From positions 3,454,501 to 3,518,500 of the forward strand of contig NZ_AP018664.1 of NCBI RefSeq assembly GCF_003967075.1: a stretch of DNA of 64,000 nucleotides. The letters are read 5' to 3'. Made by a program: the position numbers and the translations under genes. The notes beneath the pieces were generated by a model, which saw nothing but the letters and a program-made list of their open reading frames with translations, made no database searches and had not been told where the DNA came from. This DNA is from Sphingobium amiense (GTDB lineage: Bacteria > Pseudomonadota > Alphaproteobacteria > Sphingomonadales > Sphingomonadaceae). Each line of letters opens with the position of its first letter. Positions within the stretch are counted from its first letter, which is position 1. This document shows positions 31,091 through 47,519 of this stretch, piece after piece.

Positions 31091-31095
31091 CAATG

Positions 31096-31121
31096 CATGT
31101 CCGCCGGTTGCGGCGGGCATG
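31096..31121 (+). terminator. Hairpin after TonB receptor
   Basis: CATGTCCGCCG (31096-31106) pairs with CGGCGGGCATG (31111-31121) around a GTTG loop, with one G-T wobble. There is no strong T-run, so it may be a terminator or an mRNA-stabilising structure. Confidence 0.55.
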
Positions 31122-31132
31122 ACCAGATAAGG

Positions 31133-31168
31133 CAGGGCGGTTCCGGCCACACCGGCGGGACCGCCCTG
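31133..31168 (+). terminator. Second hairpin after TonB receptor
   Basis: CAGGGCGGT (31133-31141) pairs perfectly with ACCGCCCTG (31160-31168), with an inner CCGG/CCGG pairing. Together with the first hairpin it separates the receptor from the downstream transporter, although read-through is possible. Confidence 0.5.
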
Positions 31169-31213
31169 TCAGTTTCCGCAGCCATCGGTGCCGGGTGAAG
31201 GAGGGAAAGCGCA

Positions 31214-32590
31214 ATGACGACCGCAGCCGTCGCCGTCGACCATGATGGAGCCTTTCCGCCCGGCGCCGGAGCCGACCGGCTGCGGCCCTGGGAAAAGGTT
31301 AGCTACGGCATCGGCGATTTCGCCTGCGGGCTGAGCTGGAATGTCGTCGGCGCGTTCCTCCTCTATTTCTACACCAATGTCGCGTTGCTGCCCGCCGCTG
31401 CCGTAGGCACGCTGTTCCTGCTGTCGCGGCTGTTCGACGCGGGCGTCGATCTGGGCGTCGGGTTGCTGGTGGACCGGACGCGGACACGCTGGGGCCGGAC
31501 CCGGCCCTATTTCCTGTTCACCGCGATCCCCTTTTCCGCCCTGCTGGTGCTGACCTTCACGACGATCGAGGGATCGACGGGGGCGAAGCTCGCCTATGCC
31601 TATGTGACCTTTTCGCTGCTCGGCATCCTCTATTCCTTCCTTGCGGTGCCCTTTTCGGCGCTGATGCCGATGATGACGCGCGATCATGGCAGCCGGATGC
31701 AACTGGGCAGCGCGCGGGCCATCGGCACGTCGGTGTCGGTCATTCTGGCAACCGCGGCGACCATGCCACTCGTCGGCCTGTTGGGTCGCGGTAATGAGCG
31801 GCTGGGCTTCGCACTGGTCGCGGGCGTCTTCGCGATCCTGACCGTGGCGGCGCTGCTCAACCTGTTCGCCAGTTGCAGGGAACGCTATCATGACGAAGCG
31901 CCGCGCGGCGAGGCGGTCGGGCCGCAGATCGGCAAGATGCTGCGCAACCGCGCGTGGCTCGTCACTTTCCTGTTCTGCACGCTCAATTTCCTGCGGTTCG
32001 GCTGCGTGATCTCCGTCACGGCCTTTTTCGCCATTGAGGTCATGAGAGCGCCGTGGATGATCGGCATCCTGCTGCCGGCGGTGTCGGGCACGCTGCTGCT
32101 GAGCGCCTTCATCGCGCCGATGATCTTCCGGCGGACGGGCATCCGCAAGGGCTGCATCGCCGCGCTCGCCGCCGCCATCGCGCTGCACGGCGTGCTGCCG
32201 TTTATCGAGGAGCAGCATGGGCTGTTCCTCGGCGTTTTCCTGATCGCGGCGATACTGGTCAGCCTGACGATGACGGCGATCTTCACCATGGCGGCGGATG
32301 CGGTCGATTATCACGAGCGGATCTTCGGCCTGCGCAACGAAGGGCTGCTGTCGTCGGGCATCAGCCTGTCGACAAAGATCGGCATGGCGGTAGGCACGGC
32401 GATCATCGCCTATGTTCTGGGGATGGCCGGCTATGATCCCAAGGCCGTGTCGGACGGCGCGCGAGCGGCGATCCGCTGGTCCTATTATGGCTGGCCCGTC
32501 GGCATCATGCTGGTGCAGATCGCGGTGATCGCCTTCTGGCCGATGGACGGCAAGCATGAGCGCATCCGCCGGGAAATCGGCGAACGATAA
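31214..32590 (+). CDS. GPH-family glycoside/cation symporter
   Basis: Twelve-helix transporter of 458 residues in the glycoside-pentoside-hexuronide family (MelB/XylP-like). Evidence: WEKVSYGIGDFACGLSWNVV at the start of helix 1, the conserved loop VDRTRTRWGRTRPYFLF between helices 2 and 3, and Asp-bearing helix 2 (LFDAGVDLGVGLLVD). It imports a sugar or glycoside with H+ or Na+. An AAGGAGGG ribosome-binding site precedes ATG 31214. It sits between the TonB receptor and the convergent GMC operon and fits import of the oxidised or intact glycoside across the inner membrane. Confidence 0.9.
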   Translation: MTTAAVAVDHDGAFPPGAGADRLRPWEKVSYGIGDFACGLSWNVVGAFLLYFYTNVALLPAAAVGTLFLLSRLFDAGVDLGVGLLVDRTRTRWGRTRPYFLFTAIPFSALLVLTFTTIEGSTGAKLAYAYVTFSLLGILYSFLAVPFSALMPMMTRDHGSRMQLGSARAIGTSVSVILATAATMPLVGLLGRGNERLGFALVAGVFAILTVAALLNLFASCRERYHDEAPRGEAVGPQIGKMLRNRAWLVTFLFCTLNFLRFGCVISVTAFFAIEVMRAPWMIGILLPAVSGTLLLSAFIAPMIFRRTGIRKGCIAALAAAIALHGVLPFIEEQHGLFLGVFLIAAILVSLTMTAIFTMAADAVDYHERIFGLRNEGLLSSGISLSTKIGMAVGTAIIAYVLGMAGYDPKAVSDGARAAIRWSYYGWPVGIMLVQIAVIAFWPMDGKHERIRREIGER

Positions 32591-32600: not shown

Positions 32601-33431
32601 TCAGAACATCGGGTGCGCGTTGCGCGACGTTTCCGGCAGCGGCTGGAACATGTCCCAATGTTCGACGATCATGCCCCGGTCGTCGAAGCGAAAAATCTCG
32701 ACGATGGCGGCCCCCCTGTCCTCAGTGGACAGTCTGCCGCGATAATGGACCGCGGCGAAGGCGCCGTCGACCAGGATGCGCTGCACTTCAAATGCAGCGC
32801 CGGGCGCCGCGCGCAGGGCTGTGATCCCCGCCACGGCATCGGCCCGCCCCTGCCCCATGCGGCTGTTATGCTGGATCAGATCGGGCGCGACGAAGCGATC
32901 ATAGGCGGCGGCGACATCGCCTCTCGCGAAGAGCAGGTCGATGAAGGCGGTGAACGCCCTGCGATTGCGTGCGGTGTCGCCCGGTCCGCGCGGGTGCGCC
33001 GCCATCGCCAGCGGATCGCTGCCCGGCGCGGCAGGCTGGATCACGTCCCAATGCTCGACGATCCTGCCGTCCTTCAGCCGGTAGATGTCGGCCACCGCCG
33101 CGCCGCTCGTGCCGGGCTTGCCCTGACCGAACAGATGCACCAGCGCCAGATCGCCGTCGACCAGCACATGCTTCACGTCGAAGCGGGAGCCGGGCGCCGC
33201 GAACATCGGGGCGAGCGCCTCGACGGCGGCGGAAGCGCCATCGGGCAGGCCGGGATTGTGCTGGATATAATCGGGCGCGACATGCGCGGCGAAAGATCCC
33301 GCCACGTCGCGCCTGTCGTAGAAGCGCTCGACGAAATCGCGCACGATGCCCCGATTGTCGATCGTTCTGGCGGCGAGCGGCGCGGCGAGGGCCAGCAGCG
33401 CCACGCCGGGCACAGCCCATACCGCCTTCAA
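32601..33431 (-). CDS. Secreted protein with two NTF2/SnoaL-like domains
   Basis: Protein of 276 residues: signal peptide (MKAVWAVPGVALLALAAPLA) followed by two similar SnoaL-type cone domains, residues ~28-140 and ~155-270. The repeat is visible as APDYIQHNPGLPDGASA against APDLIQHNSRMGQGRAD and as IVEHWDVIQP against IVEHWDMFQP. Each copy keeps the His-Asn and Glu-His-Trp-Asp motifs that line the pocket in SnoaL-like aldol cyclases and hydrolases. It overlaps the GMC dehydrogenase gene by 4 bp, so it is made with it and acts in the same compartment. The function is unknown; a role in isomerising or hydrolysing the 3-keto product is a guess. Confidence 0.85.
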   Translation of the reverse strand: MKAVWAVPGVALLALAAPLAARTIDNRGIVRDFVERFYDRRDVAGSFAAHVAPDYIQHNPGLPDGASAAVEALAPMFAAPGSRFDVKHVLVDGDLALVHLFGQGKPGTSGAAVADIYRLKDGRIVEHWDVIQPAAPGSDPLAMAAHPRGPGDTARNRRAFTAFIDLLFARGDVAAAYDRFVAPDLIQHNSRMGQGRADAVAGITALRAAPGAAFEVQRILVDGAFAAVHYRGRLSTEDRGAAIVEIFRFDDRGMIVEHWDMFQPLPETSRNAHPMF

Positions 33432-35110
33432 AGCGCGCCCTCCTTCATCAGCGACACCGCATGGTCGCAGGCGCGCGCGGTGAGCGCCATATAGGTGAGC
33501 GACGGATTCTGGCAGGCGGACGAGCTCATCTGTGCGCCGTCGGTGACGAACAGGTTGGGCACGTCATGCGCCTGGCTCCAGCGGTTGAGCACGGAAGATT
33601 GGGGATCGTGGCCCATGCGCGCGCCGCCCATCTCGTGAATCGCCGATCCGCCGATGCCCGGCTCATCGAAGCCCATGATGACATGGCCGCCCGCAGCCTC
33701 CATCATCGCCGCCGCTTCCTTCTTCGCGTCGGTCAGCGCACGGCGTTCATTGTCGCCATGCTCGAAATGGATATTGAGCATGGGCAGCCCCTGCGGATCG
33801 AGTTTGGACGGATCGAGCGTCAGCCGGTTGGTGACGCGGGGCAGGCTTTCGGCGAAACCGACGAACACCATGCGCCACGGGCCGACCTTGTGCGTCTGTT
33901 CCTTGAAATCCTTGCCGATACCCGCCGAGCGCTTTGCAGCGGTCCAGCCGCTCTGAAGCGCGCCGCCCTGAAAGCTGTAGCCGCGCGTGAAGTCGCCGTC
34001 CTTGCGGTCGAGGTTGCGGAAACGGGGAATGACCACGCCTGTGGGCCGGTTGCCGAAGGTGGTGCGATCGTCGAACCCCGGCATGATCGCCATGGTGGAC
34101 AGGGTCGAGGCGTGATCCATGATGTGCGTGCCGAGCACGCCGCTGCTGTTGGCAAGGCCGTTCTGAAACGATTCCGAGCGCGAGCGCAGCAGGATGTGCA
34201 CGCTGTTGAACGCCCCGGCATTGAGGAAAACGATCCGCGCGCCATAGCGGGTCCGCGCCCCGGTCTTCACGTTGAGCACGCGGACGCCCGACGCCTTTTT
34301 GCTAACCGGATCATAGTCCACCGCCTCGACCAGCGAGTCGGTGATGACGGTCAACCGCCCAGTCTTCTGCGCGGCGGGCAGGGTGGAGCTTTGCGTGCTG
34401 AAATAGGCGCCATAGGAACAGCCGCGCGCGCAGATGGAGCGATACTGGCAGGGCGCGCGGCCTTCCTTCGGCGCCGTCAGATTGGCCGTGCGGCCTACCG
34501 TCAGGCAGCGGTCGGGCCATTTCTGCGCGATGGCCTTGCGCACATGCTGTTCCACGACATTGAGAGCCATGGGGGGCAGGAATTTGCCATCGGGCAGCGA
34601 GGGCAGCCCCTCCGCAGCGCCCGATACGCCGATGAAATCCTCCACATGGTCGTACCATGGCGCGACATCGGCGTAGCGGATCGGCCAGTCGGTGCCATAG
34701 CCGTCCGCCTTGTTTGCGCCGAAATCATAGTCCGACCAGCGGTAGCTCTGCCGCCCCCAGGTCAGCGACCGTCCGCCCATCTGGTAGCTGCGCCACCAGT
34801 TGAACTGCGTGCCCTCCGCCACGGCGTAAGGATTGTCCTTGTCGTTGACGAAGTGATTCTGGGTAAATTCGGTGAAATGGCGGTTCAGCCGCTGCACTGG
34901 ATATTCGCGGGCATAGAGTTCGGCATCGCCTTCGCCCCGAAACTCCATTTCCCACGGCGCCTTGGTTTCCGTGACATAGTCGGTGCCATGTTCGATCATG
35001 CGTCCCCGCTCGATCATCAGCACCTTGAGGCCTTTTTCCGTGAGTTCCTTCGCAGCCCACCCGCCGGTGATGCCCGAACCCACCACGATCGCGTCGAAAT
35101 CCATGCTCAT
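33428..35110 (-). CDS. GMC-family FAD sugar/glycoside dehydrogenase, large subunit
   Basis: Protein of 560 residues. FAD-binding Rossmann motif AIVVGSGITGGWAAKELTEK (residues ~7-26). Catalytic pair is His492 (SAIHEMGGARMG) and Asn535 (CQNPSLTYMAL). Cys221, Cys227 and Cys231 form a C-x5-C-x3-C cluster (APCQYRSICARGCSY), matching the place where FAD glucose/glucoside dehydrogenases bind an iron-sulphur cluster. There is no signal peptide; it probably crosses the membrane bound to the Tat-exported subunit 3 encoded just upstream (4-bp overlap). Relatives include gluconate 2-dehydrogenase, glucoside 3-dehydrogenase and the C-glycoside 3-oxidase CarA. Glycoside C3 oxidation is favoured by the CGD-like genes nearby, but the reaction is inferred. 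Confidence 0.9.
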   Translation of the reverse strand: MSMDFDAIVVGSGITGGWAAKELTEKGLKVLMIERGRMIEHGTDYVTETKAPWEMEFRGEGDAELYAREYPVQRLNRHFTEFTQNHFVNDKDNPYAVAEGTQFNWWRSYQMGGRSLTWGRQSYRWSDYDFGANKADGYGTDWPIRYADVAPWYDHVEDFIGVSGAAEGLPSLPDGKFLPPMALNVVEQHVRKAIAQKWPDRCLTVGRTANLTAPKEGRAPCQYRSICARGCSYGAYFSTQSSTLPAAQKTGRLTVITDSLVEAVDYDPVSKKASGVRVLNVKTGARTRYGARIVFLNAGAFNSVHILLRSRSESFQNGLANSSGVLGTHIMDHASTLSTMAIMPGFDDRTTFGNRPTGVVIPRFRNLDRKDGDFTRGYSFQGGALQSGWTAAKRSAGIGKDFKEQTHKVGPWRMVFVGFAESLPRVTNRLTLDPSKLDPQGLPMLNIHFEHGDNERRALTDAKKEAAAMMEAAGGHVIMGFDEPGIGGSAIHEMGGARMGHDPQSSVLNRWSQAHDVPNLFVTDGAQMSSSACQNPSLTYMALTARACDHAVSLMKEGAL

Positions 35111-35748
35111 CCGAAATCCACCGCTGTCCAGTCGCTCGACCAGGAGCGATTATTGGGGGGGAGGGGAAGGTCCGGCTCCCAGCGGCCCGGCACCAGTTCA
35201 TATTGCAGTTCGCGGCTCGCCCCGACTTCGGAGGTGTAATAGCCGGTGAGAATCAGCGCCTTGAGCTTCTTCCACGGATGATCTTGCCGCTCGCCGCCAA
35301 ATGCGTCCGCATCGTAGGCCGCGAGCACCGCATGCTGACGGTCGGGCCTGAGGCTGAGGAAATCGCCCGCCGCTTGCCTATTGAGGTCGCGCGCCACCTG
35401 CTCCAGCACCGAAAAGCCGCCGCGATAGCCCGCCATCCGGACTGTGCCGGAGACCGGGGGCGCGGTCTCGTCGAGACCGTGGAGCAAAGCGAGTTCAACG
35501 AAGGCGGGGACGCCGACGGCGACGGCACCGGGCGTATCGGTCGTCGGGATGACGAGATCGGACAGACGGGCAAGGAGAAGCTTCTCCGAATCGCTCGCCC
35601 CGCCATCCGCGCCGTCACGAACCTGCTGCCAGGCGTAGAGGGGCAGCCCGACGAGCACACCCAATATCGCCGCGCCGCCGACGACCTGCCGCCGATCCAC
35701 CGCACCTGTCGCGGCCCTTGCCGCATCGCCTGTCTGGCTTTCCGCCAT
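35107..35748 (-). CDS. Gluconate 2-dehydrogenase subunit 3-like Tat protein
   Basis: Protein of 213 residues, first gene of the leftward three-gene operon. The N-terminus has a Tat signal: twin arginines in DRRQVVGG followed by a hydrophobic stretch (AAILGVLVGLPLYAW). The mature part matches the small subunit that accompanies GMC dehydrogenases (LARLSDLVIPTTDTPGAVAV; FVELALLHGLDE; PWKKLKALILTGYYTSEVGA). It is thought to stabilise and export the large subunit. A promoter, a palindromic operator and a UUCG hairpin precede it. No cytochrome c subunit gene follows, unlike the classical three-subunit enzymes. Confidence 0.9.
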   Translation of the reverse strand: MAESQTGDAARAATGAVDRRQVVGGAAILGVLVGLPLYAWQQVRDGADGGASDSEKLLLARLSDLVIPTTDTPGAVAVGVPAFVELALLHGLDETAPPVSGTVRMAGYRGGFSVLEQVARDLNRQAAGDFLSLRPDRQHAVLAAYDADAFGGERQDHPWKKLKALILTGYYTSEVGASRELQYELVPGRWEPDLPLPPNNRSWSSDWTAVDFG

Positions 35749-35838: not shown

Positions 35839-37356
35839 TCAGGCGGAAGCCGTCTTGCCACGAATCTGAAGCTGGCGGGGAATGAAAAGCGCCAGCAGCG
35901 CCGTCAGCGCTAGGATGACGCCGATCACGCCCGCCGACATGGTGAATGCGTCTATGGCGTCGGCGCTGGCCATATCCTTTTCAGGCTGAACGAGGAAGAA
36001 GAGCGTGCCGATCGCGGCGGTTCCGACTGCCGCGCCAAGCTGCTGCGTCGCCTTGAGCGTGCCGGACGCCGCTCCGGCATGGTCCACGTCCACTTCCGAT
36101 AGGGTGCAGGGCGGCAACGGACCGCCGGTCAGTCCCATGCCAAGGCCCATCGACAACAATGGCAGCGCCAGCAGCGGCGGCGCCTGCGCGATCAGGTCCG
36201 GTGCGTGGAAGAGCCACGTCAGGGCGGCAAGGCCCGCGACCATCAGCATCGCGCCCCAGCTTATGATGACGGGTCCATAGCGGGGCAGAGCCTTGCGCGA
36301 CAGCATGCCGATCGCAAAGGACGCGCCGAAGGCATAGGGCACATGCGCAATGCCCACCTGCGCGGCGCTAAAGCCCAGCCCGCGCTGCATCGCCAGCGTC
36401 AGCGTGAACATGAGGCCGCCGGTCGCCGTCTGGAACAGGAGCGTGGTCAGCAGACCGAAGGAGAAGCCGCGCGCGCGGAACAGTTCGGGCACGATCAGCG
36501 CCGATCCGTCCCGCGCCATCCGCGTCCGGCTGTAGCGCATCAGGATGAGCGCGACCGGAATGGCGGACCCCATCAGCACGAAGCCCCACAGCGGCCAGCC
36601 ATAATCGCGGCCCTGGATCAGCGGAAAGATGAGGGCGAAGAGCAGCGCCAGAACCAGCCCCGTTCCGACCACATCGAGGCGCGGGCTGCGCGCCGATTTG
36701 CCGGAAGGCAGGATGCGCGCCGCGAGGATCAGCGCGGCGATGCCGATGGGCAGATTGACGAGGAAGATCGGCCGCCAGCCGAGACCGAAAAGGTTGGCGC
36801 TCAGCAGGAACCCGCCGATGACCGGACCCAGAACCGCCGCCAGACCGCCCAATATCCCGAACAATGCGAGCGCCGAAACCCGCTCATGAGGTGGATACAT
36901 GATCTGGGTGAGCGACATGACCTGCGGCAGCATGATCGCCGCCGCAGCACCCTGAAGCAGGCGCCCGGCCACAAGCTGACCCGGCGTCTGCGCGATGCCG
37001 CAGAACAGGGAGGTGAGCGTGAAACCGGCGACCCCGATGAGGAAGGCGCGACGGTATCCGGCAATGTCGCCCAGCCGCCCGCCGGTGATCAGCAGCAGGG
37101 AAAAGATGGTCGAATAGCCCGCGACCATCCACTGCACCTCCGCGTCGCTCGCGCCGAGCTGCGCCTGCAGGGTCGGGACGGCGACGTTGATGATCGTCAT
37201 GTCGACAAGGTCGAGAACCATGGCCGTCGCGACGATGGCGAGCGCGAGGCTGCGTTGCTTCGGACTGAGCAGAGCGGCGGATTCCAGAGCGCTTTGTTGC
37301 GGCGCGCCGCTGATCCGTGCGCTGCCCTTCCCCTCTTCCCGCATCTTCTCTCTCAT
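35839..37356 (-). CDS. DHA2-family MFS efflux transporter (EmrB/QacA type)
   Basis: Protein of 505 residues with 14 predicted membrane helices. Markers are MVLDLVDMTIINVAVPTLQA in helix 1, GGRLGDIAGYRRAFLIG in the first loop, and GRLLQGAAAAIMLPQVMSL in helix 4 (motif C-like GPVIGGFLLS follows). The DHA2 class exports hydrophobic drugs and phenolics by proton antiport. The start may instead be ATG 37344, because a -10-like TATAAA overlaps the 37356 ATG. A palindromic operator lies directly upstream. In this locus it may expel a toxic aglycone or intermediate (inference). Confidence 0.88.
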   Translation of the reverse strand: MREKMREEGKGSARISGAPQQSALESAALLSPKQRSLALAIVATAMVLDLVDMTIINVAVPTLQAQLGASDAEVQWMVAGYSTIFSLLLITGGRLGDIAGYRRAFLIGVAGFTLTSLFCGIAQTPGQLVAGRLLQGAAAAIMLPQVMSLTQIMYPPHERVSALALFGILGGLAAVLGPVIGGFLLSANLFGLGWRPIFLVNLPIGIAALILAARILPSGKSARSPRLDVVGTGLVLALLFALIFPLIQGRDYGWPLWGFVLMGSAIPVALILMRYSRTRMARDGSALIVPELFRARGFSFGLLTTLLFQTATGGLMFTLTLAMQRGLGFSAAQVGIAHVPYAFGASFAIGMLSRKALPRYGPVIISWGAMLMVAGLAALTWLFHAPDLIAQAPPLLALPLLSMGLGMGLTGGPLPPCTLSEVDVDHAGAASGTLKATQQLGAAVGTAAIGTLFFLVQPEKDMASADAIDAFTMSAGVIGVILALTALLALFIPRQLQIRGKTASA

Positions 37357-37424: not shown

Positions 37425-37466
37425 TTGACAGCCCTGTCGCCAACCAATAGACGAATGATAGTTCTA
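37425..37466 (+). promoter_or_regulatory. Promoter and operator site S4 of the CGD-like operon
   Basis: TTGACA (37425-37430), 17 bp, then TAGACG as a weak -10. ACGAATGATAGTTCTA (37451-37466) overlaps the -10 and matches the reverse complement of S3 at 12 of 16 positions. TCTAATTAGA (37463-37472) adds a perfect 10-bp palindrome. A repressor here would block the transporter and deglycosidase genes. Confidence 0.5.
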
Positions 37467-37513
37467 ATTAGAGACGGCGCACGAGTCGTCCGGCCCAGAG
37501 GAGCCAAGGCGCA

Positions 37514-38743
37514 GTGCGTTCCATCGTCGATTTCTTTCGCCGCCTGACAATGGTGCCGCAGGGCGCGACCATCGTGTTCGCAGGCTTCCTGCCGATCTTC
37601 GCGATCGTGTCGATGTTTCCCGCGATTCCGGCCATCATCGACCATTTCGCCGCCGATCCCGACGCACGCTGGAAGGTGCCGATGATGGTGTCCGCGCCGG
37701 GCCTTACCATCGCGCTGATCGCGCCGTTCGCCGGTTTCTTCGTCGACCGTTTCGGTCGCCGCCCTCTGCTGATCGGCGCGACCCTGCTCTATGGCATTGT
37801 CGGCACCTCGCCCTTCTTCCTCGACAGCCTCAACGCCCTTATCGCCTGCCGCCTGCTGCTGGGCGTGGCGGAGGCTGCGATCCTGACCATCGTCAACACG
37901 CTGATCGCCGATTATTGGGACGACTGGGGTCGCAAGGACTGGCTGTTCCTTCAGGGCGTGTGCGGCCCGTTTCTCGCCTCGGGCGTCATCCTGATGTCGG
38001 GCGCGGCGTCGGCGGTGCGGTGGAACGGCATCTTCCTCGTCTACGCCGTCGCCTTCCCGATCTTCGTCGCGATGATCCTGTGGCTGTTCGAGCCGCGCCG
38101 CGCCGACGGCGCCACCATCGCGCAGATCGCGCAGAAGGAGACGGCGGCGCGCACGCCCTTCCCGATTGCGTCCATCGTCCTGATCGGCGGCACGACGCTG
38201 GTCGCTTCAGCGCTCTATTATGTCTTCATCATCAGCGGCTCGCTCGCCTGGCGTGAGGTCGGTGTTATGGACTCCGCCCGCATCGGCCAGCTTACCGCCA
38301 TTCCCAGCCTGTTCGTGATGCTCGGCGCGCTGATCTTCCGCCTGATGGGCGGCATGTCGCACAGGACGAAGCTCGCGACCTTCTTCGGCCTGCTGGGCAT
38401 CGGCCTTGCCGGGATCGGCCTTGCGCCGGACTGGCGCTGGCTGACGGCAGCGCTGATCGTGCAGCAGACGGGCGCGGGCATGGCTGTCGCCACCATCATC
38501 CTGTGGGCGCAGAGCATGCTGCCGTTCGAACATCGCGGCCGCGGCATGGGCGTGTGGACCGCCTGCTTCTTCTTCGGCCAGTTTTCCAGCCCCTGGCTGG
38601 TGCATCAGGCCGAAACCATCGTCGGCACCATGCAGGGCGCGTTCCTTGCGGCGGGTCTGGCAGGGATCGTCGCCGCCATCATCATCATCGGCCTCATGCG
38701 CGAACCGCGCGCCCCGGCTCCTTCCATCGCTCCTGCGGAGTAA
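37514..38743 (+). CDS. MFS transporter, first gene of CGD-like operon
   Basis: Twelve-helix major facilitator of 409 residues starting with GTG at 37514 (AGAGGAG at about 37498-37504). Conserved loop DRFGRRPLLIGATLLYGIVG between helices 2 and 3 and RLLLGVAEAAILTIVNTLIA in helix 4 place it in the drug/organic-solute MFS group. Only 3 nt separate it from the deglycosidase alpha gene, whose ribosome-binding site lies within its last codons. It probably imports the substrate, for example a 3-keto-glycoside or a phenolic glycoside; direction of transport is not proven. Confidence 0.88.
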   Translation: MRSIVDFFRRLTMVPQGATIVFAGFLPIFAIVSMFPAIPAIIDHFAADPDARWKVPMMVSAPGLTIALIAPFAGFFVDRFGRRPLLIGATLLYGIVGTSPFFLDSLNALIACRLLLGVAEAAILTIVNTLIADYWDDWGRKDWLFLQGVCGPFLASGVILMSGAASAVRWNGIFLVYAVAFPIFVAMILWLFEPRRADGATIAQIAQKETAARTPFPIASIVLIGGTTLVASALYYVFIISGSLAWREVGVMDSARIGQLTAIPSLFVMLGALIFRLMGGMSHRTKLATFFGLLGIGLAGIGLAPDWRWLTAALIVQQTGAGMAVATIILWAQSMLPFEHRGRGMGVWTACFFFGQFSSPWLVHQAETIVGTMQGAFLAAGLAGIVAAIIIIGLMREPRAPAPSIAPAE

Positions 38744-38746
38744 ATC

Positions 38747-39757
38747 ATGACAAGCGATATCAAGCGGGGCGTCAGCCTCTACAGTTTCCAGCACGAAACC
38801 TTTCAGGGAAAGATGACCCTTGAGGATTGCTTCAGGACGTGCGCCGACATGGGCGCTCTGGGCATCGAGGTCATTGGGGAGCAGACCTTCTGGGGCTGGC
38901 CCGAAGCCACGGTCGACGAGGCGAAAATCGAGGAATGGCACGCGCTCATCGGGAAATATGGCGCGACCCCCGTCTGCCACGACTTCATGCTCGACTATAA
39001 ACGCTACAAGGGCAGGATGATGTCGCTTGAGGAGCAGGTCGCCAGCGTGAGGAAGGATCTGGATTTCGCGTCGCGGCTCGGCGTGAAATATGTGCGCGCT
39101 CTGGTTTCGATCGCGCCCGAAGTGCTGGTGGCCGCCGCGCCCTATGCGGAGGAAAAAGGCCTCAAGATCCTGATCGAGGTGCACGCCCCGCTGCATTTCG
39201 ACCATCCCTGGATCATCCGCCACGCCGAAGCCTTTGAAAAATCCGGCTCCGACGCGCTCGGGTTCCTGCCCGACATGGGCATGTTCCTGTTCAAATTTCC
39301 GCCGGTTTGGAAGGAGCGCTTCATTCGCAACGGCGTGCCGCGGAACATCGCCGACTATATCGAGAAGGCTTATGAAGACCGTGTTCTTTCCGAATATGTG
39401 ATCCTGAACGTGCGCGAGATGGGCGGCGAAGGCCCGGCGCTGGGCATGGCGGAAACGCTGCGCCACAATGCCGCGTTCGAACCCAAACGGATGCTCGATT
39501 ACATGCACCGCATCCACAATATCCATGGCAAATTCTACCAGATGGATGAAAATCTGGTCGAGCCGTCCATTCCCTATGACGAGATCGTCCGGGTGCTGAA
39601 GCAGGGCGGTTACAAGGGCTATATCTGCTCCGAATATGAGGGGAACCGCTGGATCGAGGACGCGCAGGAGGTCGATTCGGTCGAACAGGTTCGCCGCCAG
39701 CAGGCAATGCTCAAAGGCCTGATCGGCGAACCCACCCCCACCGCGCTCGCCGCCTGA
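38747..39757 (+). CDS. TIM-barrel sugar isomerase/epimerase-like protein, probable C-glycoside deglycosidase alpha subunit
   Basis: Cytoplasmic protein of 336 residues with the xylose-isomerase-like TIM-barrel fold. Metal ligands can be placed as Glu144 (LIEVHAPLHF), Asp176 (LPDMGMFLF), His260 (IHGKFYQMD) and Glu296 (CSEYEGNRW); His146 beside Glu144 is a candidate base. In known deglycosidases (DgpC, CarC, Arthrobacter CGD) such an alpha subunit pairs with a small DUF6379 beta subunit and cleaves the C-C bond of 3-keto C-glycosides by metal-assisted elimination. The next gene is exactly such a DUF6379 protein. Activity on O-linked 3-keto-glycosides is possible too. The subunit assignment is inferred from pairing and motifs. 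Confidence 0.82.
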   Translation: MTSDIKRGVSLYSFQHETFQGKMTLEDCFRTCADMGALGIEVIGEQTFWGWPEATVDEAKIEEWHALIGKYGATPVCHDFMLDYKRYKGRMMSLEEQVASVRKDLDFASRLGVKYVRALVSIAPEVLVAAAPYAEEKGLKILIEVHAPLHFDHPWIIRHAEAFEKSGSDALGFLPDMGMFLFKFPPVWKERFIRNGVPRNIADYIEKAYEDRVLSEYVILNVREMGGEGPALGMAETLRHNAAFEPKRMLDYMHRIHNIHGKFYQMDENLVEPSIPYDEIVRVLKQGGYKGYICSEYEGNRWIEDAQEVDSVEQVRRQQAMLKGLIGEPTPTALAA

Positions 39758-39770
39758 GGAGATACGAGAC

Positions 39771-40163
39771 ATGTTCGACAAGATGATGCTGTGCGACGAG
39801 GGTTTCGAGAATGTCGTCGAAGATGGCGAAGTGACCGGTTTTTCCCTGCTCGCCCGTCTCCCTTATTATCGCGGCCTTGGCCTTTCGATGATCGAGGATA
39901 TCGGCCTCACCATCGACGGCGAGCCGGTGGCGCGCGAGGACATCCGCTTTTCCGTGCGGGGGCGGAGCTGGACGCTGGACGAGATGGAGACCGTCTATGA
40001 CGATCGCTGGAACTTCGGCGAAAAGGCGAAGGTCATGGTGCGGCGCCCCGGCGGCCTGACGCCCGGCGCGCACAGGGTCGACATCGCGGTGCGGATGCGG
40101 GTGTCCTACCTGCCCTTCGTCCCCACCACGAAGACCGGGCGCGAACTGCAACTCGCCGCCTGA
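39771..40163 (+). CDS. DUF6379-type small protein, probable C-glycoside deglycosidase beta subunit
   Basis: Protein of 130 residues, no signal peptide. Sequence features are MFDKMMLCDEGFENVVEDGE at the N-terminus, YYRGLGLSMIEDIGLTIDGE, and FSVRGRSWTLDEMETVYDDR; these match the beta-sandwich subunit (DgpB/CarB-like) that packs on the TIM-barrel partner to close the active site. It lies 13 bp after the alpha gene with its own ribosome-binding site (GAGGAGA). A 12-bp hairpin follows its stop. I recognise it by family resemblance and by the tell-tale pairing with the TIM-barrel gene. Confidence 0.8.
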   Translation: MFDKMMLCDEGFENVVEDGEVTGFSLLARLPYYRGLGLSMIEDIGLTIDGEPVAREDIRFSVRGRSWTLDEMETVYDDRWNFGEKAKVMVRRPGGLTPGAHRVDIAVRMRVSYLPFVPTTKTGRELQLAA

Positions 40164-40274: not shown

Positions 40275-41189
40275 ATGCGGCAGGCCGCCTATTCGCTGTT
40301 GATCGCCGGCACACTCTGCGCCTGTGCTGCCGGAGCGCAGGCGCAACCCGCCTTTCGCTTCGAAGCCATGGCCCAGCCGGCGCAGACAGACGCGATCCCG
40401 CTCGACACCGGTCCGCAGGCGCCCGATGTGCCGCCCGAACACTGGTTCCGCATGGACGGCGCGGTCAACGTCCGCAACGTCTCCCGTGCGACGCTGACGC
40501 CCTATCTGCCCGCCAGTCGGAAGGCGACGGGCACTGCCGTCATCGTCGCGCCCGGTGGCGGCTTTCTAGGCCTCGCCATGGAGGTCGAGGGAACGCGCGT
40601 CGCGCAATGGCTGGCCGGCCACGGCGTCGCTGCGTTCGTGCTCAAATATCGGCTCGTCCCGACACCCGCCGATTTCAGGGATTTCACAGACGGCATGACG
40701 GCCACGCGTAGCGGCAGGCCTTCCACCGTGAAGCCGCCCGCCGACACGCCGGACTTCGCCATTCAGGATGGTCTGGCCGCGCTGTCGCTGGTGCGCACGC
40801 GCGCGAAACTATGGAAGGTCGATCCGGCCCGCATCGGCATGATGGGCTTTTCCGCAGGCGCGTTCACCACGATCGGCGCCAGCCTTGCAGCCCGTCCGGG
40901 GGAGCGGCCCGCCTTCATCGCGCCGATCTACGGGCGTCTTACCGCACGCGACGTTCCGGCGGACGCGCCGCCCATGTTCGCGGTGCTGGCCAGCGACGAT
41001 CATTTCTTCGCGTCGCAGGGCTTTGGCTTGGTCGATGCGTGGATCAGGGCGAAGCGGCCCGTCGAATTTCATCTCTATCAGGACGGCGGCCATGGTTTCG
41101 GTCTCGGCCGTCCCGGAACGACGAGTGACGGGTGGATTGGCCAGTTCATGACATGGCTGCGCGCCAATCGCCTGATTCCGGCACGATGA
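40275..41189 (+). CDS. Secreted alpha/beta-hydrolase esterase (acetyl-xylan/feruloyl esterase-like)
   Basis: Protein of 304 residues starting at ATG 40275, after GGGAGCAAGGG. A signal peptide ends near GAQAQP, so it acts in the periplasm. Catalytic elements are the nucleophile Ser193 in GFSAGAF, Asp in LASDDHFF and His in DGGHGFG; the oxyanion region is VAPGGGFLGLAMEVEG. It resembles the BD-FAE/Axe-type esterases that remove acetyl or hydroxycinnamoyl groups from sugars. In this locus it may deacylate glycosides before C3 oxidation. It overlaps the next gene by 4 bp. Confidence 0.85.
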   Translation: MRQAAYSLLIAGTLCACAAGAQAQPAFRFEAMAQPAQTDAIPLDTGPQAPDVPPEHWFRMDGAVNVRNVSRATLTPYLPASRKATGTAVIVAPGGGFLGLAMEVEGTRVAQWLAGHGVAAFVLKYRLVPTPADFRDFTDGMTATRSGRPSTVKPPADTPDFAIQDGLAALSLVRTRAKLWKVDPARIGMMGFSAGAFTTIGASLAARPGERPAFIAPIYGRLTARDVPADAPPMFAVLASDDHFFASQGFGLVDAWIRAKRPVEFHLYQDGGHGFGLGRPGTTSDGWIGQFMTWLRANRLIPAR

Positions 41190-41686: not shown

Positions 41687-42367
41687 TCAGCCTTTCGCGC
41701 GCAGGAAGGCGGGGCACATGATCGCGAGATCTTCCTTCAGCTCTTCCCAATTGCCCTGATTGGCGGCTTCGGGCGAGGAGCCGAGACCGAGGAAGCGGGC
41801 GAGCGTGTAATAGATCATGCGGAACACGTTGCCGACCAGCCGCTCATGATCCGGCCGGCCGAATTCATCGGCGAAACGCATCATCTGCGCTTCTGCCTCC
41901 CGCACCAGATTTTCGGCGGAATTCTTGCCCAGCGCCGACATCGACTGATCGTAGATGGCGCGGAACATGATGGGGCGCAGCACCGGGCTGAAGCGCTTGA
42001 GCAGTTCGGCATAAGCTTCCACGAACTGCCGCGCGAACTCGTCGAGCGTGGACGCATTCTGACGGATCTGCTGCATCATCGCGTCCTGTTCCTCGCCGAT
42101 CTGGGTCAGCACGCGGCCATGGACGGCGCGGATCAGATCGTCCTTGCTGTCGAAGCGCAGATAGATGGAACCGATGGAAACCTTCCCCGCCTTGGCCACC
42201 TCGGTCAGCGTGAAGTCGTCGTTACCGCGCTTCACCATCAGCTTTTCGGCGGCAGTCAGCATCCGTTCGTAGGAAGCGCGGCTCCGCCCCTGTTGAGGCA
42301 CGCGCGACGCTTCGGTCGCAGCGGAAATAGAATCAGACTTCGCTTTCGTGGTTGACATCGCCGCCAT
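41687..42367 (-). CDS. TetR-family regulator, candidate master regulator of the glycoside locus
   Basis: Protein of 226 residues (ATG at 42358 would give 223). DNA-binding domain: SYERMLTAAEKLMVKRGNDD, then FTLTEVAKAGKVSIGSIYLR and FDSKDDLIRAVH. The C-terminal domain is long and helical, as in ligand-binding TetR proteins. It is the only local regulator amid the glycoside genes, and a copy of the GAA-N6-TTC-type palindrome lies between it and the divergent monooxygenase gene. Autoregulation and control of the GMC, transporter and CGD-like units are inferred. Confidence 0.9.
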   Translation of the reverse strand: MAAMSTTKAKSDSISAATEASRVPQQGRSRASYERMLTAAEKLMVKRGNDDFTLTEVAKAGKVSIGSIYLRFDSKDDLIRAVHGRVLTQIGEEQDAMMQQIRQNASTLDEFARQFVEAYAELLKRFSPVLRPIMFRAIYDQSMSALGKNSAENLVREAEAQMMRFADEFGRPDHERLVGNVFRMIYYTLARFLGLGSSPEAANQGNWEELKEDLAIMCPAFLRAKG

Positions 42368-42385: not shown

Positions 42386-42401
42386 AATAACATTGGTTCT
42401 A
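42386..42401. promoter_or_regulatory. Operator site S6 between TetR and monooxygenase genes
   Basis: AATAACATTGGTTCTA keeps the right half of the locus palindrome (TGGTTCTA) exactly as in the reverse complement of S3; the left half is degenerate. The surrounding 119-bp gap is AT-rich (TAATAATAAC; TAATTTATAGC) and probably holds both divergent promoters. Confidence 0.45.
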
Positions 42402-42486
42402 ATTTATAGCTATTCTGACGGCATCGGCAGCCAATGTAAACCGGCCGTCATATGAGCGCCAACTATTTGCGCCGCTGGAGGGGATA

Positions 42487-43599
42487 ATGCGCTTTTCCGT
42501 GTTTCTGAACGCCCGGTCGATGGCACCCGAGGAAGATCGCCAACTGATCCGCGATCTGACCGACCATGCGACGAAGGCGGAGGCGCTGGGCTTCGACGCG
42601 ATCTTCATGCCGGACCATCATTTCAACGGCTATATGCCGATTGCGTCCGACAGCTTCATGTTCGCATCCTATCTGGCGGCGAAGCTGCCGCGCATGCATT
42701 TCGGCTTTTCGGTCGTGTCCGTGCCGCTGCACCACCCCGTCCGCTTCGTCGAGCGCATCAACATCCTCGACCAGTTGACCGACGGCAAGCTGATGGTCGG
42801 CGTCGGCAGCGGCACGACGCCCGAGGAGATGATCGGCTTCGGCGTCAACTACAAGGATGCGGGCGCGGTGTCGGACGCCAATCTGGCGCTTGCCGAACGG
42901 CTCTGGGCCAAGGGCATGGAAGATCCCGCGATCGAGATCGACAACGGGCCGCACAAGGGCCGCGTGCTCCAGCGCATCGCACCGGCGCAATATACCAAGG
43001 GTCACGCGCCGCTGATGCCCGTCGCCATGAAGGAAACGAGCGCGCGCCGCGCCGCCGAAAATGGCTGGCCCGCCTTCATTCCCGCCTTCACCCCGCCGCA
43101 GATCGGCGGCACCGAACCGATGAAGCATGTCGCCAAATATTTTGGCATTTACCGTGATATGCTGGAAGGAGCGGGCCACGCGCCGGAGGTCGTCGCAAGG
43201 GCGCTCGACTGGACGACGCACACCTACCAGTGCGTCCATGTCGCCGAAACCGACGAGCAGGCGCGCGAGGAGCTGGAAGTCATCCTGCGCTCCTATCAGG
43301 ACGCCATCGAGCGCGAGGCGGAATTCAACGCCCGCGCCGAATCCGACAGCGCCAACAGGAAGACCGACCGGACGCCCAACGCGCTGACCGAGGACTGGAT
43401 CGGCACCTGGTGCCTCTACGGCTCGCCCGAAACGGTGATCGAGCATCTGAAACCCTATGAGGAACTGGGCATCGGCAACATCCTGTGCGGCACCACCACC
43501 GGGCCGCTGAGCGAGGAAAGGCTGCGGCTCGGCAACCAGACGCTGCAACTGCTGTCCGAGAAAGTGATGCCTGCGTTCAAGGTGCGCGAACCGGCGTGA
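42487..43599 (+). CDS. Luciferase-like (LLM-class) FMN-dependent monooxygenase
   Basis: Protein of 370 residues with a TIM barrel of the bacterial luciferase family (FDAIFMPDHHFNGYMPIASD; FGFSVVSVPLHHPVRFVERI; GKLMVGVGSGTTPEEM). Such enzymes use reduced FMN supplied by a separate reductase to hydroxylate aromatics or to carry out Baeyer-Villiger oxygenation. An FMN reductase gene follows 56 bp downstream. GGAGGGGATA precedes the ATG. Upstream of an extradiol dioxygenase, it likely hydroxylates a phenolic aglycone to a catechol-type diol (inference). Confidence 0.88.
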   Translation: MRFSVFLNARSMAPEEDRQLIRDLTDHATKAEALGFDAIFMPDHHFNGYMPIASDSFMFASYLAAKLPRMHFGFSVVSVPLHHPVRFVERINILDQLTDGKLMVGVGSGTTPEEMIGFGVNYKDAGAVSDANLALAERLWAKGMEDPAIEIDNGPHKGRVLQRIAPAQYTKGHAPLMPVAMKETSARRAAENGWPAFIPAFTPPQIGGTEPMKHVAKYFGIYRDMLEGAGHAPEVVARALDWTTHTYQCVHVAETDEQAREELEVILRSYQDAIEREAEFNARAESDSANRKTDRTPNALTEDWIGTWCLYGSPETVIEHLKPYEELGIGNILCGTTTGPLSEERLRLGNQTLQLLSEKVMPAFKVREPA

Positions 43600-43655: not shown

Positions 43656-44231
43656 ATGCCTGATCGTCCCAAGCGGATCGTGGGCCTGGGCGGAACATTC
43701 CGGCAGGCGTCGTCGAGCGAGCGGCTCGTGCGCGCCGTGCTGGCGCAGTGCGCCGCCATGGGCGCGGAAACCGCGATGTTCGATGGACCCGCGCTGGCGC
43801 GCCTGCCCCACTTCAATCCCGAACATCCCGACCGCACCAACGAAGAGCGTGCGCTTGTCGAGGCGATCCGCGCCTGCGACGGCATCGTGATCGGCAGTCC
43901 GGGCTATCATGGCGGCTATTCGGGCCTCGTCAAAAATGCGGTGGACCTGCTGGAGGATCTGCGCGGCGACGCGCGCGTCTATTTCGACGGACGGCCGGTC
44001 GGGCTGGTCGTCACCGCCGCGGGATGGCAGGCATGCGGGACCACGCTGTCCGCCCTGCGCGATGTCGTCCATGCGATGCGTGGGTGGCCGACGCCGGTCG
44101 GCATCGCCGTCAATTCCGTCGAGCAGCGCCCCTTCGGCCCGGACGGGGCCATCATCGACGAAGCCATCGCCGGAGCGATCCATGCGCAGGCGCGGCAGAT
44201 CATGGCCTTCGCCATGGAGACGATTATATGA
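43656..44231 (+). CDS. NADPH-dependent FMN reductase
   Basis: Flavodoxin-fold reductase of 191 residues. Phosphate-binding region LGGTFRQASSSERLVRAVL and the flavin motif GIVIGSPGYHGGYSGLVKNA are typical of NAD(P)H:FMN reductases (SsuE/ArsH-like). AAGGAG precedes the ATG. It probably supplies FMNH2 to the luciferase-like monooxygenase just upstream, making a two-component oxygenase. It overlaps the GH3 gene by 4 bp. Confidence 0.9.
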   Translation: MPDRPKRIVGLGGTFRQASSSERLVRAVLAQCAAMGAETAMFDGPALARLPHFNPEHPDRTNEERALVEAIRACDGIVIGSPGYHGGYSGLVKNAVDLLEDLRGDARVYFDGRPVGLVVTAAGWQACGTTLSALRDVVHAMRGWPTPVGIAVNSVEQRPFGPDGAIIDEAIAGAIHAQARQIMAFAMETII

Positions 44232-46615
44232 CCGACACACTGACCCTGGAAGAACAGCTCGCGATGACGGCGGGCGCGGCCATGTGGTCGACGGTCGGCT
44301 ATGAGAAGGCGGGCATCCCCGCCCTCTCCATGGCGGACGGTCCCATGGGCATCGCCAGCGGCCGCGTGGACGAGCGCGACATCGCTCTGCTGACGCCCTG
44401 TCCCACTGCGCTGGGCGCAAGCTGGGACGTCGAACTCAATGCGCGGGTCGGCGCGCTGGTGGGCGGCGAGGCGATCCGCATGGGCGTGGACATGGTGCTC
44501 GCGCCCAACGTCAACCTCGCCCGCAGCCCGCTCGCCGGGCGGGCCTTCGAATATTTCTCCGAAGAGCCGGTGCTGGCCGGTGTGCTGGGCGCGGCCTGGA
44601 CGACCGGCCTGCAATCGACCGGCACCGCGTCGGTGGTCAAGCATCTGGTCTGCAACGACAGCGAAACAGACCGCGACCGGATGAATGCCGTGGTGGACGA
44701 ACGCACGCTGCGCGAAGTCTATCTGCTGCCCTTCGAACTGTGTGCGCAGGCGGGGGCGGGCGGCATGCTGGCGGCCTATAACCGGGTGAATGGCGACTGG
44801 TGCGCGGAGCAGCATCACGTCCTCACCACCATCGTCAAGGGTGAGTGGGCCTATCCCGGCCTCATCATGAGCGACTGGTTCGGCACGCATTCGACCGCGG
44901 CGACGCTGCATGCTGGGCTGGATCTCGAAATGCCCGGCCCGGCGCGCTTCCTCGGCTTCAGGGCGAATGAGGCGCTGGCAAAGGGAGACCTCGATACCGG
45001 CCGGATCAGGGACGCCGCCGCGCGGGTGACGCGGGCTGCCCTGCGCTTCAGGCAGGACAAGACTGCGCCCATCGTGGGCAGGGACGCCGACAATCTGCTG
45101 GTTGAGGCGGCGGCGGCAGGATTCGTCATGCTGCGCAACGAAGGCGGCCTGCTTCCCCTTGTTCCCGGACGCGACAGGCATATCGCCATCATCGGGCCGA
45201 ACGCCGCAGCGCCCTGCTATCAGGGCGGCACCTTCGCCAAAATCGCCGTGTCCCCCCAAGCCGCGCGCCCGCTCGAAGCGATCATGGCGCGCTTCGCGGA
45301 TCATGCGCGTGTCGATTATGAACCCGGTGTCGATCCCCAGCCGCGCCTGCCCTCCATGCCGGTGACGCCCTGTCGCGACCTTGGCGACGGCTTCGCAAGC
45401 GGCATGACCATCGACTATTATGACGGTCAGCAGGCTGACGCGCGCCTGATCGCCAGCGAAACGCGGGACACCAATTCGCTGGTCTGGTTCGCGGGCGTGC
45501 ATGACGATGTCGCGATGCTCGGCCAGCCTGCGCGCATCGTTGCGCGCGGCATCTTCCGCGCCGAACAGGATGGCGATCATATTTTCTATCTCGGCGCGAC
45601 CGGCCCTGTCGTCATGCGCGTCGATGGCGCCGAGGTGCTGGCGCAGCAGGAGCCGATCCCGTCCTCCGATGTCATGGGCAAGCTCAAGAGCGGAGACGCG
45701 CGCAGCGTTTCGCTTGCGCTGCGAGCCGGTCAGGAAGCGGCGGTCGAGGTCGAGTTCACCTATGATCCCGCGCGCGTTCACGGCCTCTGGTATGGCATCC
45801 GCCGCCCCGACACGCCCGAAGCGATGCTGGCCCGCGCGGTGGCGCTCGCAGGGCAGGCGGACGCGGTGATCCTGATGGTCGGCGAAACCTCCGACGCCAG
45901 CGTCGAGAGCAAGGACCGAGGGGACACGCATCTCCCCGCCGAGCAGATCGCGCTGATCGAAGCGGTCACGGCGGCCAATCCCCGGACGGCGGTCGTGGCG
46001 AATGTCGGCCACGCTTTCGATACCCGCTGGGAAGACCGGGCCGCCGCGCTGCTGATCGCATGGTATCCGGGCGAGGGCTTCGGTGAGGCTATCGCTCAGG
46101 TGCTGGCGGGCGACCGCGAACCGGGCGGTCGTATGCCCGTCGCCATTGCGCGCGAGGAAAGCGACTATCCCGCATTCTCCCTCACCCCCGACGCGAACGG
46201 CGATCTCGCTTATGCCGAAGGCACGCGGATCGGCTATCGCGGCATGGCCGATCCCCGGCACACGCTGGGCGAAGGATCGGGCTATGCCGACATCGCGCTG
46301 CTGGCCGCTCGCGTCGAGCTGGGCGACGATGGCGGGCTGGTCGTGCGCGCCACGGTCGAAAACCGGTCCGACCGCGCCGGCAGCGACGTGATCCAGATCT
46401 ACCGCCGCGCGCCCGAGCTGGCGCTGTGCGGCTTCGCCAAGGCCCATCTCGCGCCGGGCGAGCGGCGCGACATCCTCATACCCATCGCCCGCCGCCGCCT
46501 GCAATCATGGCGGGACGGCTGGGTGGATATTGAAAATCCGGGCCTGTTCGCGGGCCGATCCGCCCGCGACATCGCCTTCGACCTTTCCCTTCCTGCGCTG
46601 GAGCCGATCGCATGA
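44228..46615 (+). CDS. GH3 beta-glucosidase with inserted PA14 domain
   Basis: Protein of 795 residues, no signal peptide, so cytoplasmic. The GH3 N-terminal barrel ends in the nucleophile region GLIMSDWFGTHST; the substrate-binding KHLVCNDSETDRDR and the (alpha/beta)6 domain with VILMVGETSDASVESKDRGD (acid/base loop) follow. A PA14-like insert (residues ~395-520; GIFRAEQDGDHIFYLGATGP) and a C-terminal fibronectin-III-like domain are present. GH3-PA14 enzymes hydrolyse aryl beta-glucosides and short glucans. The start overlaps the reductase stop, and its stop overlaps the dioxygenase start (both ATGA). It would process O-glucosides, while the CGD-like pair handles C-glycosides. Confidence 0.92.
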   Translation: MTDTLTLEEQLAMTAGAAMWSTVGYEKAGIPALSMADGPMGIASGRVDERDIALLTPCPTALGASWDVELNARVGALVGGEAIRMGVDMVLAPNVNLARSPLAGRAFEYFSEEPVLAGVLGAAWTTGLQSTGTASVVKHLVCNDSETDRDRMNAVVDERTLREVYLLPFELCAQAGAGGMLAAYNRVNGDWCAEQHHVLTTIVKGEWAYPGLIMSDWFGTHSTAATLHAGLDLEMPGPARFLGFRANEALAKGDLDTGRIRDAAARVTRAALRFRQDKTAPIVGRDADNLLVEAAAAGFVMLRNEGGLLPLVPGRDRHIAIIGPNAAAPCYQGGTFAKIAVSPQAARPLEAIMARFADHARVDYEPGVDPQPRLPSMPVTPCRDLGDGFASGMTIDYYDGQQADARLIASETRDTNSLVWFAGVHDDVAMLGQPARIVARGIFRAEQDGDHIFYLGATGPVVMRVDGAEVLAQQEPIPSSDVMGKLKSGDARSVSLALRAGQEAAVEVEFTYDPARVHGLWYGIRRPDTPEAMLARAVALAGQADAVILMVGETSDASVESKDRGDTHLPAEQIALIEAVTAANPRTAVVANVGHAFDTRWEDRAAALLIAWYPGEGFGEAIAQVLAGDREPGGRMPVAIAREESDYPAFSLTPDANGDLAYAEGTRIGYRGMADPRHTLGEGSGYADIALLAARVELGDDGGLVVRATVENRSDRAGSDVIQIYRRAPELALCGFAKAHLAPGERRDILIPIARRRLQSWRDGWVDIENPGLFAGRSARDIAFDLSLPALEPIA

Positions 46616-47514: not shown

Positions 47515-47519
47515 GCCCC

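Follow-up and report, generated by a model that had tools for sequence, protein, structure and literature searches.

A candidate heteromeric C-glycoside deglycosidase in a putative C-glycosyl-flavonoid utilisation locus of Sphingobium amiense

C-glycosides withstand ordinary glycosidases, and bacterial recyclers of the C-glycosides of soil and plants have been characterised mainly from the gut and from Actinobacteria. The DNA considered here, called the window, is a stretch of 64,000 nucleotides of the sphingomonad Sphingobium amiense (contig NZ_AP018664.1, positions 3,454,501 to 3,518,500), numbered from its first letter. At 38747-40163 it holds a pair of genes whose products are probably the two subunits of a C-glycoside deglycosidase (CGD):

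38747-39757, plus strand: CGD alpha subunit, TIM barrel (PF01261), 336 amino acids (aa); metal site E144, D176, H260, K262 and E296, catalytic H146, and E298
39771-40163, plus strand: CGD beta subunit (PF19906), 130 aa; Tyr33 is the counterpart of Tyr39 in the beta subunit of PuCGE

Both open reading frames (ORFs) lie exactly where the first-pass annotation of this DNA had put them, in length, coordinates, strand and the 13-bp gap from alpha to beta, and a purine-rich stretch precedes each ATG. That annotation had made its identification depend, beforehand, on a DUF6379 match of the small protein among other conditions. The 130-aa protein matches the PF19906 profile, named 'C-glycoside deglycosidase beta subunit', scoring 144.9 bits where the cut-off is 27.6 (E 1e-42), with residues 2-113 spanning profile positions 1-112 of 112; it is the single PF19906 match in the host genome, and DUF6379 is the PDB label on its relatives. 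In a search of solved-structure sequences, the best relative of alpha is 8qvc_A (E 7e-115), and of the 10 distinct solved sequences that match with E no higher than 1, 8 belong to structure entries in which a CGDB chain or domain is present as well. In pairwise comparison alpha and 8qvc_A are 53% identical; for 7bvr, 9m3b and 7dnm the figure is 29-31% (31% for 7bvr). The CGD of 8qvc, 8qvd and 8umc, which we take to be that of Deinococcus aerius, is the best solved match of beta as well. Single-chain AlphaFold2 (AF2) models reach mean confidence (pLDDT) values of 92.4 for alpha and 90.1 for beta.

The metal ligands of AgCGD2 are reported as Glu147, Asp179, His269, Lys271 and Glu305, with His149 as the base and Glu307 in support (Mori et al., PMC8563793). 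E144, D176, H260, K262, E296, H146 and E298 of the window protein fall in these columns, and all seven agree in 4/4 solved chains compared, which were drawn from the eight CGD sequences matched. The one His, two Glu, one Asp and one Lys of a CGD metal site are thus present together with the catalytic His and its supporting Glu. The first-pass annotation had placed Glu144, Asp176, His260 and Glu296 correctly and had not listed Lys262, the fifth metal-site residue in solved CGDs, nor His146 and Glu298. Across an alpha alignment of 50 sequences (the window protein, 45 relatives and four sequences of a divergent paralogue), E144, H146, D176, K262, E296 and E298 never vary, and conservation of H260 is 90% or more. 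Tyr33 of beta is invariant in 45/45 aligned sequences, and its correspondence to PuCGE Tyr39 is inferred from an equal-length match of beta 6-117 to 7bvr_B 12-123. The beta subunit of PuCGE and its Tyr are reported to be essential for C-cleavage: changing Tyr39 to Phe loses more than 99% of C-cleavage and lowers O-cleavage just 2.4-fold (PMC10628242). The CGDB partner, the homology to solved CGDs and the active site all support the CGD identity first proposed.

Other CGD loci are numerous. One scan of genome contigs with the alpha query found 72 named loci, mostly of Sphingobium, Novosphingobium and Sphingomonas, and others of Erythrobacter, Blastomonas, Niveispirillum, Nitrospirillum, Azospirillum, Ideonella, Pelomonas, Pantoea, Pluralibacter, Pseudomonas, Caballeronia and Paraburkholderia. 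In 71 of the 72, tblastn places the start of beta 12-117 bp beyond alpha; the remaining locus stops at the end of its contig. CGDB is present in 24 of 397 genomes sampled from the host's family, Sphingomonadaceae (hereafter the 24 CGD genomes and the 373 others); in a phylum-wide sample it lies above cut-off in 3/398 genomes, all of this family, with one more match below it. From these counts, CGD in sphingomonads is patchy, not rare. A second, divergent CGD-like pair also occurs, and Novosphingobium aromaticivorans DSM 12444 carries both kinds of pair on plasmid pNL2 (locus L103; SARO_RS18730/18735 and SARO_RS18755/18760). The second pair is present with alpha (about 336 aa) in 19/72 and beta (about 127 aa) in 15/72 named loci; in the rows shown, Trp replaces the first Tyr of the YYR motif of its beta. 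It often stands beside a choline-dehydrogenase-type GMC protein, at loci including L022, L024, L040, L102 and L103:21618-23016, and none was seen in the window. Since CGD homologues of Proteobacteria were already noted in 2021 (PMC8563793) and also appear in PMC12724307, the CGD itself adds one more member to an established family, in a cluster setting that is newer; given these reports and the 72 loci from one scan, the novelty implied by the first-pass annotation was too large.

Other CGD loci repeat the genes found between 28769 and 52710 of the window, and genes outside this span hardly recur; flanks were compared to at most 10 kb, hence genes past about 52.7 kb are scarcely covered. The other features of the span are:

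28769-31090, plus strand: TonB-dependent outer-membrane receptor; recurs at CGD loci
31214-32590, plus strand: MFS_2 sugar-type transporter; at least 50/72 named loci
32601-33431, minus strand: protein with a pair of SnoaL-like domains and a hydrophobic N-terminal end; overlaps the GMC gene by 4 bases
33428-35110, minus strand: GMC dehydrogenase large subunit, dependent on flavin adenine dinucleotide (FAD); candidate C3 oxidoreductase
35107-35748, minus strand: gluconate 2-dehydrogenase subunit 3 family protein; N-terminal RR and hydrophobic stretch
35839-37356, minus strand: MFS transporter, DHA2-like (NCBIfam below cut-off); divergent from the CGD operon
37461-37469, plus strand: GTTCTAATT element, before the MFS-CGD operon
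37514-38743, plus strand: MFS transporter, candidate importer; ends 3 bp before alpha; at least 46/72 named loci
40275-41189, plus strand: alpha/beta hydrolase, esterase-like (NCBIfam below cut-off)
41687-42367, minus strand: TetR-family regulator, divergent from the luciferase-like monooxygenase
42396-42404, plus strand: GTTCTAATT element, between the TetR and monooxygenase genes
42487-43599, plus strand: luciferase-like monooxygenase (LLM); close relatives in CGD genomes alone (397-genome sample)
43656-44231, plus strand: probable NAD(P)H:flavin mononucleotide (FMN) reductase, LLM partner; relative at L059; one weak match
44228-46615, plus strand: GH3 glycoside hydrolase; start set downstream of the longest ORF
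46612-47514, plus strand: extradiol-type (VOC) dioxygenase; best solved relative 3b59
47433-48677, plus strand: alpha/beta hydrolase, C-C hydrolase-like; true start probably near 47520
48801-49580, plus strand: cyclase-family protein, PF04199
49585-50535, plus strand: fumarylacetoacetate-hydrolase (FAH) family protein
50532-51656, plus strand: Gfo/Idh/MocA oxidoreductase, candidate 3-keto-glucose reductase
51658-52710, plus strand: 2-hydroxy-3-keto-glucal hydratase homologue (8ro4)

The ORF picker overlooked beta in 5 named loci and alpha in 2. Neighbour counts over the 72 named loci are lower bounds and come to at least 50 for MFS_2, 46 for MFS, 35 for the hydratase, 33 for LLM, 32 for GH3, 31 for Gfo, 30 each for the TonB receptor and GMC, 25 for the small GMC subunit, 17 for FMN reductase, 12 for the C-C hydrolase, 11 for the extradiol dioxygenase, 8 for FAH and 6 for the cyclase. 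The closest locus, L109 of the same genus (genome G352), keeps the gene order from GMC through hydratase at 83-97% identity; it differs in that the two small genes which separate beta from TetR are absent, and no Gfo was called there by the ORF picker. Relatives of the double SnoaL-like protein occur at L003, L004, L005 and L110. Minus-strand ORFs at 31169-32557 and 28790-31150 have no family matches, and the plus-strand genes are preferred there. A 258-aa Hyi/epimerase-like TIM barrel (for example L053:8760-9536) is a CGD neighbour in 52/72 named loci, with no member found among the window genes.

The pair at 38747-40163 is thus read, with a probability of roughly 0.77, as a heteromeric CGD (a 3-keto-C-glycoside lyase) that would act as one step of a C-glycosyl-flavonoid utilisation locus at about 28769-52710. 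Gene content, family membership, conservation of active site and neighbourhood, and co-occurrence carry this reading, and from them the reactions, compartments and substrate are predicted. The TonB receptor would carry the glycoside into the periplasm, where the GMC dehydrogenase and its small subunit would oxidise the glucosyl C3 hydroxyl and pass electrons to the respiratory chain, and an MFS carrier would import the 3-keto-glycoside. In the CGD, a Mn-type metal would hold the 3-keto sugar, His146 would take the C2 proton and Tyr33 of beta would hold the aglycone phenolate, so that the aglycone is eliminated and 2-hydroxy-3-keto-glucal remains. The hydratase would turn the latter into 3-keto-glucose and the Gfo/Idh enzyme would reduce 3-keto-glucose to glucose. 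LLM with the FMN reductase, the extradiol dioxygenase, the C-C hydrolase, the cyclase and the FAH-type enzyme would degrade the aglycone, probably via its A-ring. The first-pass annotation had considered a complete pathway plausible from the neighbouring genes, a view that gains from the CGD-linked oxidoreductase clade, the hydratase homologue, the Gfo/Idh enzyme and the flavonoid-type ring-cleavage pair described below.

For the aglycone half, LLM of at least 77% identity is found in 10 CGD genomes and in pieces (74-85%) in an eleventh (G036), giving 11/24 against 0/373 others; the next-best LLM match in the sample is 31% identical. One copy, in G025, holds a single TGA. The LLM-like fragments of G036 lie on G036:C1 at 3345270-3346362 and 9836-10927, in a genome with three CGDB matches. 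The dioxygenase at 46612-47514 matches the uncharacterised 3b59 at 486 bits and then 2,3-dihydroxybiphenyl dioxygenase at 67 bits, and the best solved relative of the C-C hydrolase at 47433-48677 is 2,6-dihydroxypseudooxynicotine hydrolase (DHPON; 57.5 bits). An isoflavone A-ring pathway is reported to pair an extradiol enzyme with a DHPON-like hydrolase (PMC11069340). The window holds the same combination as the fde/ifc pathway at the level of families, with no fde or ifc sequence compared, and the pair points to a flavonoid aglycone. A different aglycone, such as a xanthone, an anthraquinone or a C-glucosyl gallate, is unlikely, yet it deserves serious thought: CarBC is reported to act on an anthraquinone glycoside, 3'-oxo-carminic acid (PMC8563793), and the Deinococcus aerius study has xanthonoids in its title, against which stands the family-level fit of the dioxygenase and DHPON-like hydrolase to reported flavonoid A-ring pathways.

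The sugar half has relatives beyond CGD loci. The protein encoded at 51658-52710 matches hydratase 8ro4 at 603 bits over residues 1-348 of the 349 in that chain, and hydratases of at least 77% identity occur in 22/24 CGD genomes against 3/373 others. Copies of 70-81% stand in eight CGD-less loci (seven by the ORF picker; L105 by genome search), with Gfo called in 7/8 and a GMC of 45-53% in 8/8; a Pfam scan of nine proteins from four of the eight found the 3-keto-disaccharide hydrolase family PF06439 in L106 and L115. The co-occurrence of these relatives suggests that the sugar half looks common to other 3-keto-glycoside routes, the lyase being what differs. In Phyllobacterium sp. 628, plasmid p_1 (L122, 8001-10247), a hydratase and a Gfo lie beside ABC sugar transporters, with neither GMC nor CGD annotated within 8 kb, a context from which the hydratase-Gfo pair appears to serve other routes too. 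Reduction of 3-keto-glucose by Gfo has been proposed for the O-glucoside pathway of Agrobacterium (PMC10628242); by analogy, the Gfo/Idh gene before the hydratase is a candidate 3-keto-glucose reductase. These relatives, and PF06439 in two of the four loci scanned, would also suit an enzyme that is mainly a generalist beta-eliminase of 3-keto-O-glycosides with C-glycosides as a side activity, as would the report that PuCGE cleaves 3-keto-O- and 3-keto-C-glucosides alike (PMC10628242). Such an enzyme is improbable here, though partly compatible with the other alternatives, since the beta subunit and the Tyr that PuCGE needs for C-cleavage, the Tyr costing O-cleavage only 2.4-fold when made Phe, are both kept, and CGD-linked GMC proteins group apart from CGD-less ones.

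The oxidising step is assigned to the GMC protein, a candidate whose match to fructose dehydrogenase spans its entire sequence (132.9 bits, wild-type chain), with glucose dehydrogenase also among its best solved relatives. The pyranose-oxidase-like chains 8qve and 7qf8 match it only C-terminally, at query residues of about 420-555 (about 40 bits); with no full-length similarity of this kind, judged through 8qve and 7qf8 and not CarA or PurA themselves, an oxidase of the CarA/PurA type in the window is disfavoured. A GMC large subunit with a gluconate_2-dh3 partner is the make-up expected of an FAD-dependent glycoside 3-dehydrogenase of the GlycDH type, a likeness drawn from gene content. The N-terminal RR and hydrophobic stretch of the small partner, judged by eye, suggest by analogy Tat export and respiratory electron transfer. 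GMC of at least 66% identity over the full length occurs in 21/24 CGD genomes against 0/373 others, or 21/24 against 2/373 at a cut of 60%, and in 19 of the 21 it lies within 16 kb of a CGDB; the others are G036, by linear coordinates, and G025, with the two on different contigs. In a tree, 34 CGD-linked and 9 CGD-less rows are split by one branch (support 100/99); the tree program cautions about possible artefacts from long branches. Of the remaining GMC types near CGD, the choline-dehydrogenase type was not included and the 641-aa type contributed one outside row.

Oxidation of C3 by the Gfo/Idh enzyme at 50532-51656, with GMC serving another sugar, is quite improbable. A Gfo/Idh gene is indeed present in the cluster, and DgpA, the NAD-dependent enzyme reported to oxidise puerarin in gut bacteria, is of this type (PMC12724307, PMC11239390). 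The window Gfo matches 9m37 at 34 bits against 336 to 3v5n, and similarity disfavours it as a DgpA equivalent. It also adjoins the hydratase, an operon of Agrobacterium is reported to combine a hydratase with a Gfo that reduces 3-keto-glucose (PMC10628242), and the GMC clade tracks CGD (21/24 against 0/373). That alpha is a plain sugar isomerase or epimerase, as its xylose-isomerase-like fold and the names in database records would have it, is scarcely credible beside the CGDB partner, the CGD active site and 53% identity to a solved CGD alpha chain.

Several observations weigh against the proposed C-glycosyl-flavonoid locus. Thirteen of the 24 CGD genomes are without LLM, and the GMC clade is absent from three (G119, G157 and G164). 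Other GMC types stand near CGD, the choline-dehydrogenase type in 11/72 and the 641-aa type in 3/72 named loci; in G164 the 641-aa type stands beside a CGD just 31% identical to that of the window, and the 641-aa protein at L051 has glucose/fructose dehydrogenase as its best matches. Plasmid pSA2 of Novosphingobium resinovorum has a 31% CGD and another GMC, with no LLM annotated within 10 kb. In the window itself GMC is encoded in an operon of its own that diverges from the CGD operon. The identity thresholds were set after seeing gaps in the values, the genome searches scored at most three (GMC) or five (LLM, hydratase) candidates per genome, and the Fisher p of 5e-32 for GMC (21/24 against 0/373) overstates independence because the genomes are related. 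A second pocket tyrosine of PuCGE, Tyr303, appears to align with Asn300 here, as it does in 8qvc, and because PuCGE also cleaves 3-keto-O-glucosides, O-glycosides may be natural substrates. Finally, tblastn with one query, the FAD enzyme of the L049 cluster, found no FdeE-type hydroxylase in the window, the nearest homologue in the genome (42%, C1:2011186) being 1.5 Mb away; LLM may therefore carry out the FdeE-type hydroxylation, or it may act elsewhere.

The two copies of the short element, RTTCTAATT, compare with 0.10 expected in the 64-kb window and were equalled in 1/100 shuffles, for a motif picked after viewing the gaps; it is also present in 15/15 other TetR-LLM gaps printed. A search for inverted repeats in eight intergenic gaps yielded no shared operator, RTTCTAATT alone recurring. 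Its presence at both places and in the other TetR-LLM gaps is a hint of common control of the MFS-CGD operon and the LLM genes. Beyond the locus, a block at 52732-63185 encodes a 4-hydroxybenzoate 3-monooxygenase (635.9 bits, above cut-off), an aldehyde dehydrogenase, an enoyl-CoA hydratase and an ATP-grasp/CoA-ligase protein, which by family could be a hydroxycinnamate/4-hydroxybenzoate route taking the flavonoid B-ring. A homogentisate 1,2-dioxygenase and fumarylacetoacetase pair lies at 22483-25058.

A broader proposal can be made only tentatively, with doubt slightly outweighing confidence: a third, respiratory form of C-glycoside catabolism may exist in Proteobacteria, in which C-glycosyl flavonoids are oxidised in the periplasm by an exported GMC/gluconate_2-dh3 enzyme with no hydrogen peroxide formed. 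Uptake of the 3-keto-glycoside and its cleavage by CGD would follow, and a flavonoid A-ring pathway would begin with a dedicated two-component LLM that Deinococcus shares and that is linked to CGD. The first, oxidising enzyme of the cluster looks, from its relatives, different from those studied so far. Titles and beginnings of abstracts among the literature matches listed mention no sphingomonad CGD, no dehydrogenase variant and no link to LLM; the Deinococcus aerius study may already describe the LLM gene. A cluster recurring in Sphingobium, Novosphingobium, Sphingomonas, Niveispirillum, Pseudomonas and others would render named, culturable strains testable, and it yields candidate enzymes for proteobacterial C3 oxidation and for aglycone oxidation, around a CGD whose identity to the enzymes compared from the gut and from Arthrobacter is just about 30%.

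Among known systems, the fde (naringenin) and ifc (isoflavone) pathways share with the window, at family level, a glyoxalase-type dioxygenase and a DHPON-like hydrolase (PMC11069340), whereas the window has LLM and an FMN reductase and, by the one query used, no FdeE-like FAD hydroxylase. The DgpABC/Dfg systems of gut bacteria (PuCGD, EuCGD) have the same metal site and catalytic His (PuCGD) and, by position, the same beta Tyr; their alpha is 31% identical (7bvr) and their oxidation is by a Gfo/Idh-type enzyme. CarABC and PurABC of soil Actinobacteria are likewise reported to use an alpha-beta CGD after FAD-dependent C3 oxidation (PMC8563793, PMC12724307), but their first enzyme is a C-glycoside oxidase, whereas the GMC of the window is, by comparison with solved chains, fructose-dehydrogenase-like. 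One CGD locus each of Arthrobacter and Enterococcus has no LLM, dioxygenase, cyclase or FAH annotated nearby, and that of Arthrobacter carries a distant GH3. The GlycDH-OGE-HYD-Gfo pathway of Agrobacterium for O-glucosides, as reported, resembles the window in a hydratase homologue, a Gfo and a GMC-type flavoenzyme (PMC10628242), GlycDH being likened by description only; it has the unrelated lyase OGE where the window has CGD alpha-beta.

The CGD cluster of Deinococcus aetherius, a member of another phylum, shares with the window relatives of TetR (38%), LLM (66%), FMN reductase (56%), GH3 (48%), cyclase (41%), FAH (30%), C-C hydrolase (54%) and dioxygenase (22%). Unlike the window, it has ABC import and a different GMC, with 37% identity over 71 residues and no full-length match; in its 25-kb stretch no Gfo/Idh is annotated, and the name 'sugar phosphate isomerase' is given to one product alone, which is CGD alpha. 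The CGD of 8qvc, 8qvd and 8umc is the closest solved sequence, and its active site is the same as that of the window enzyme.

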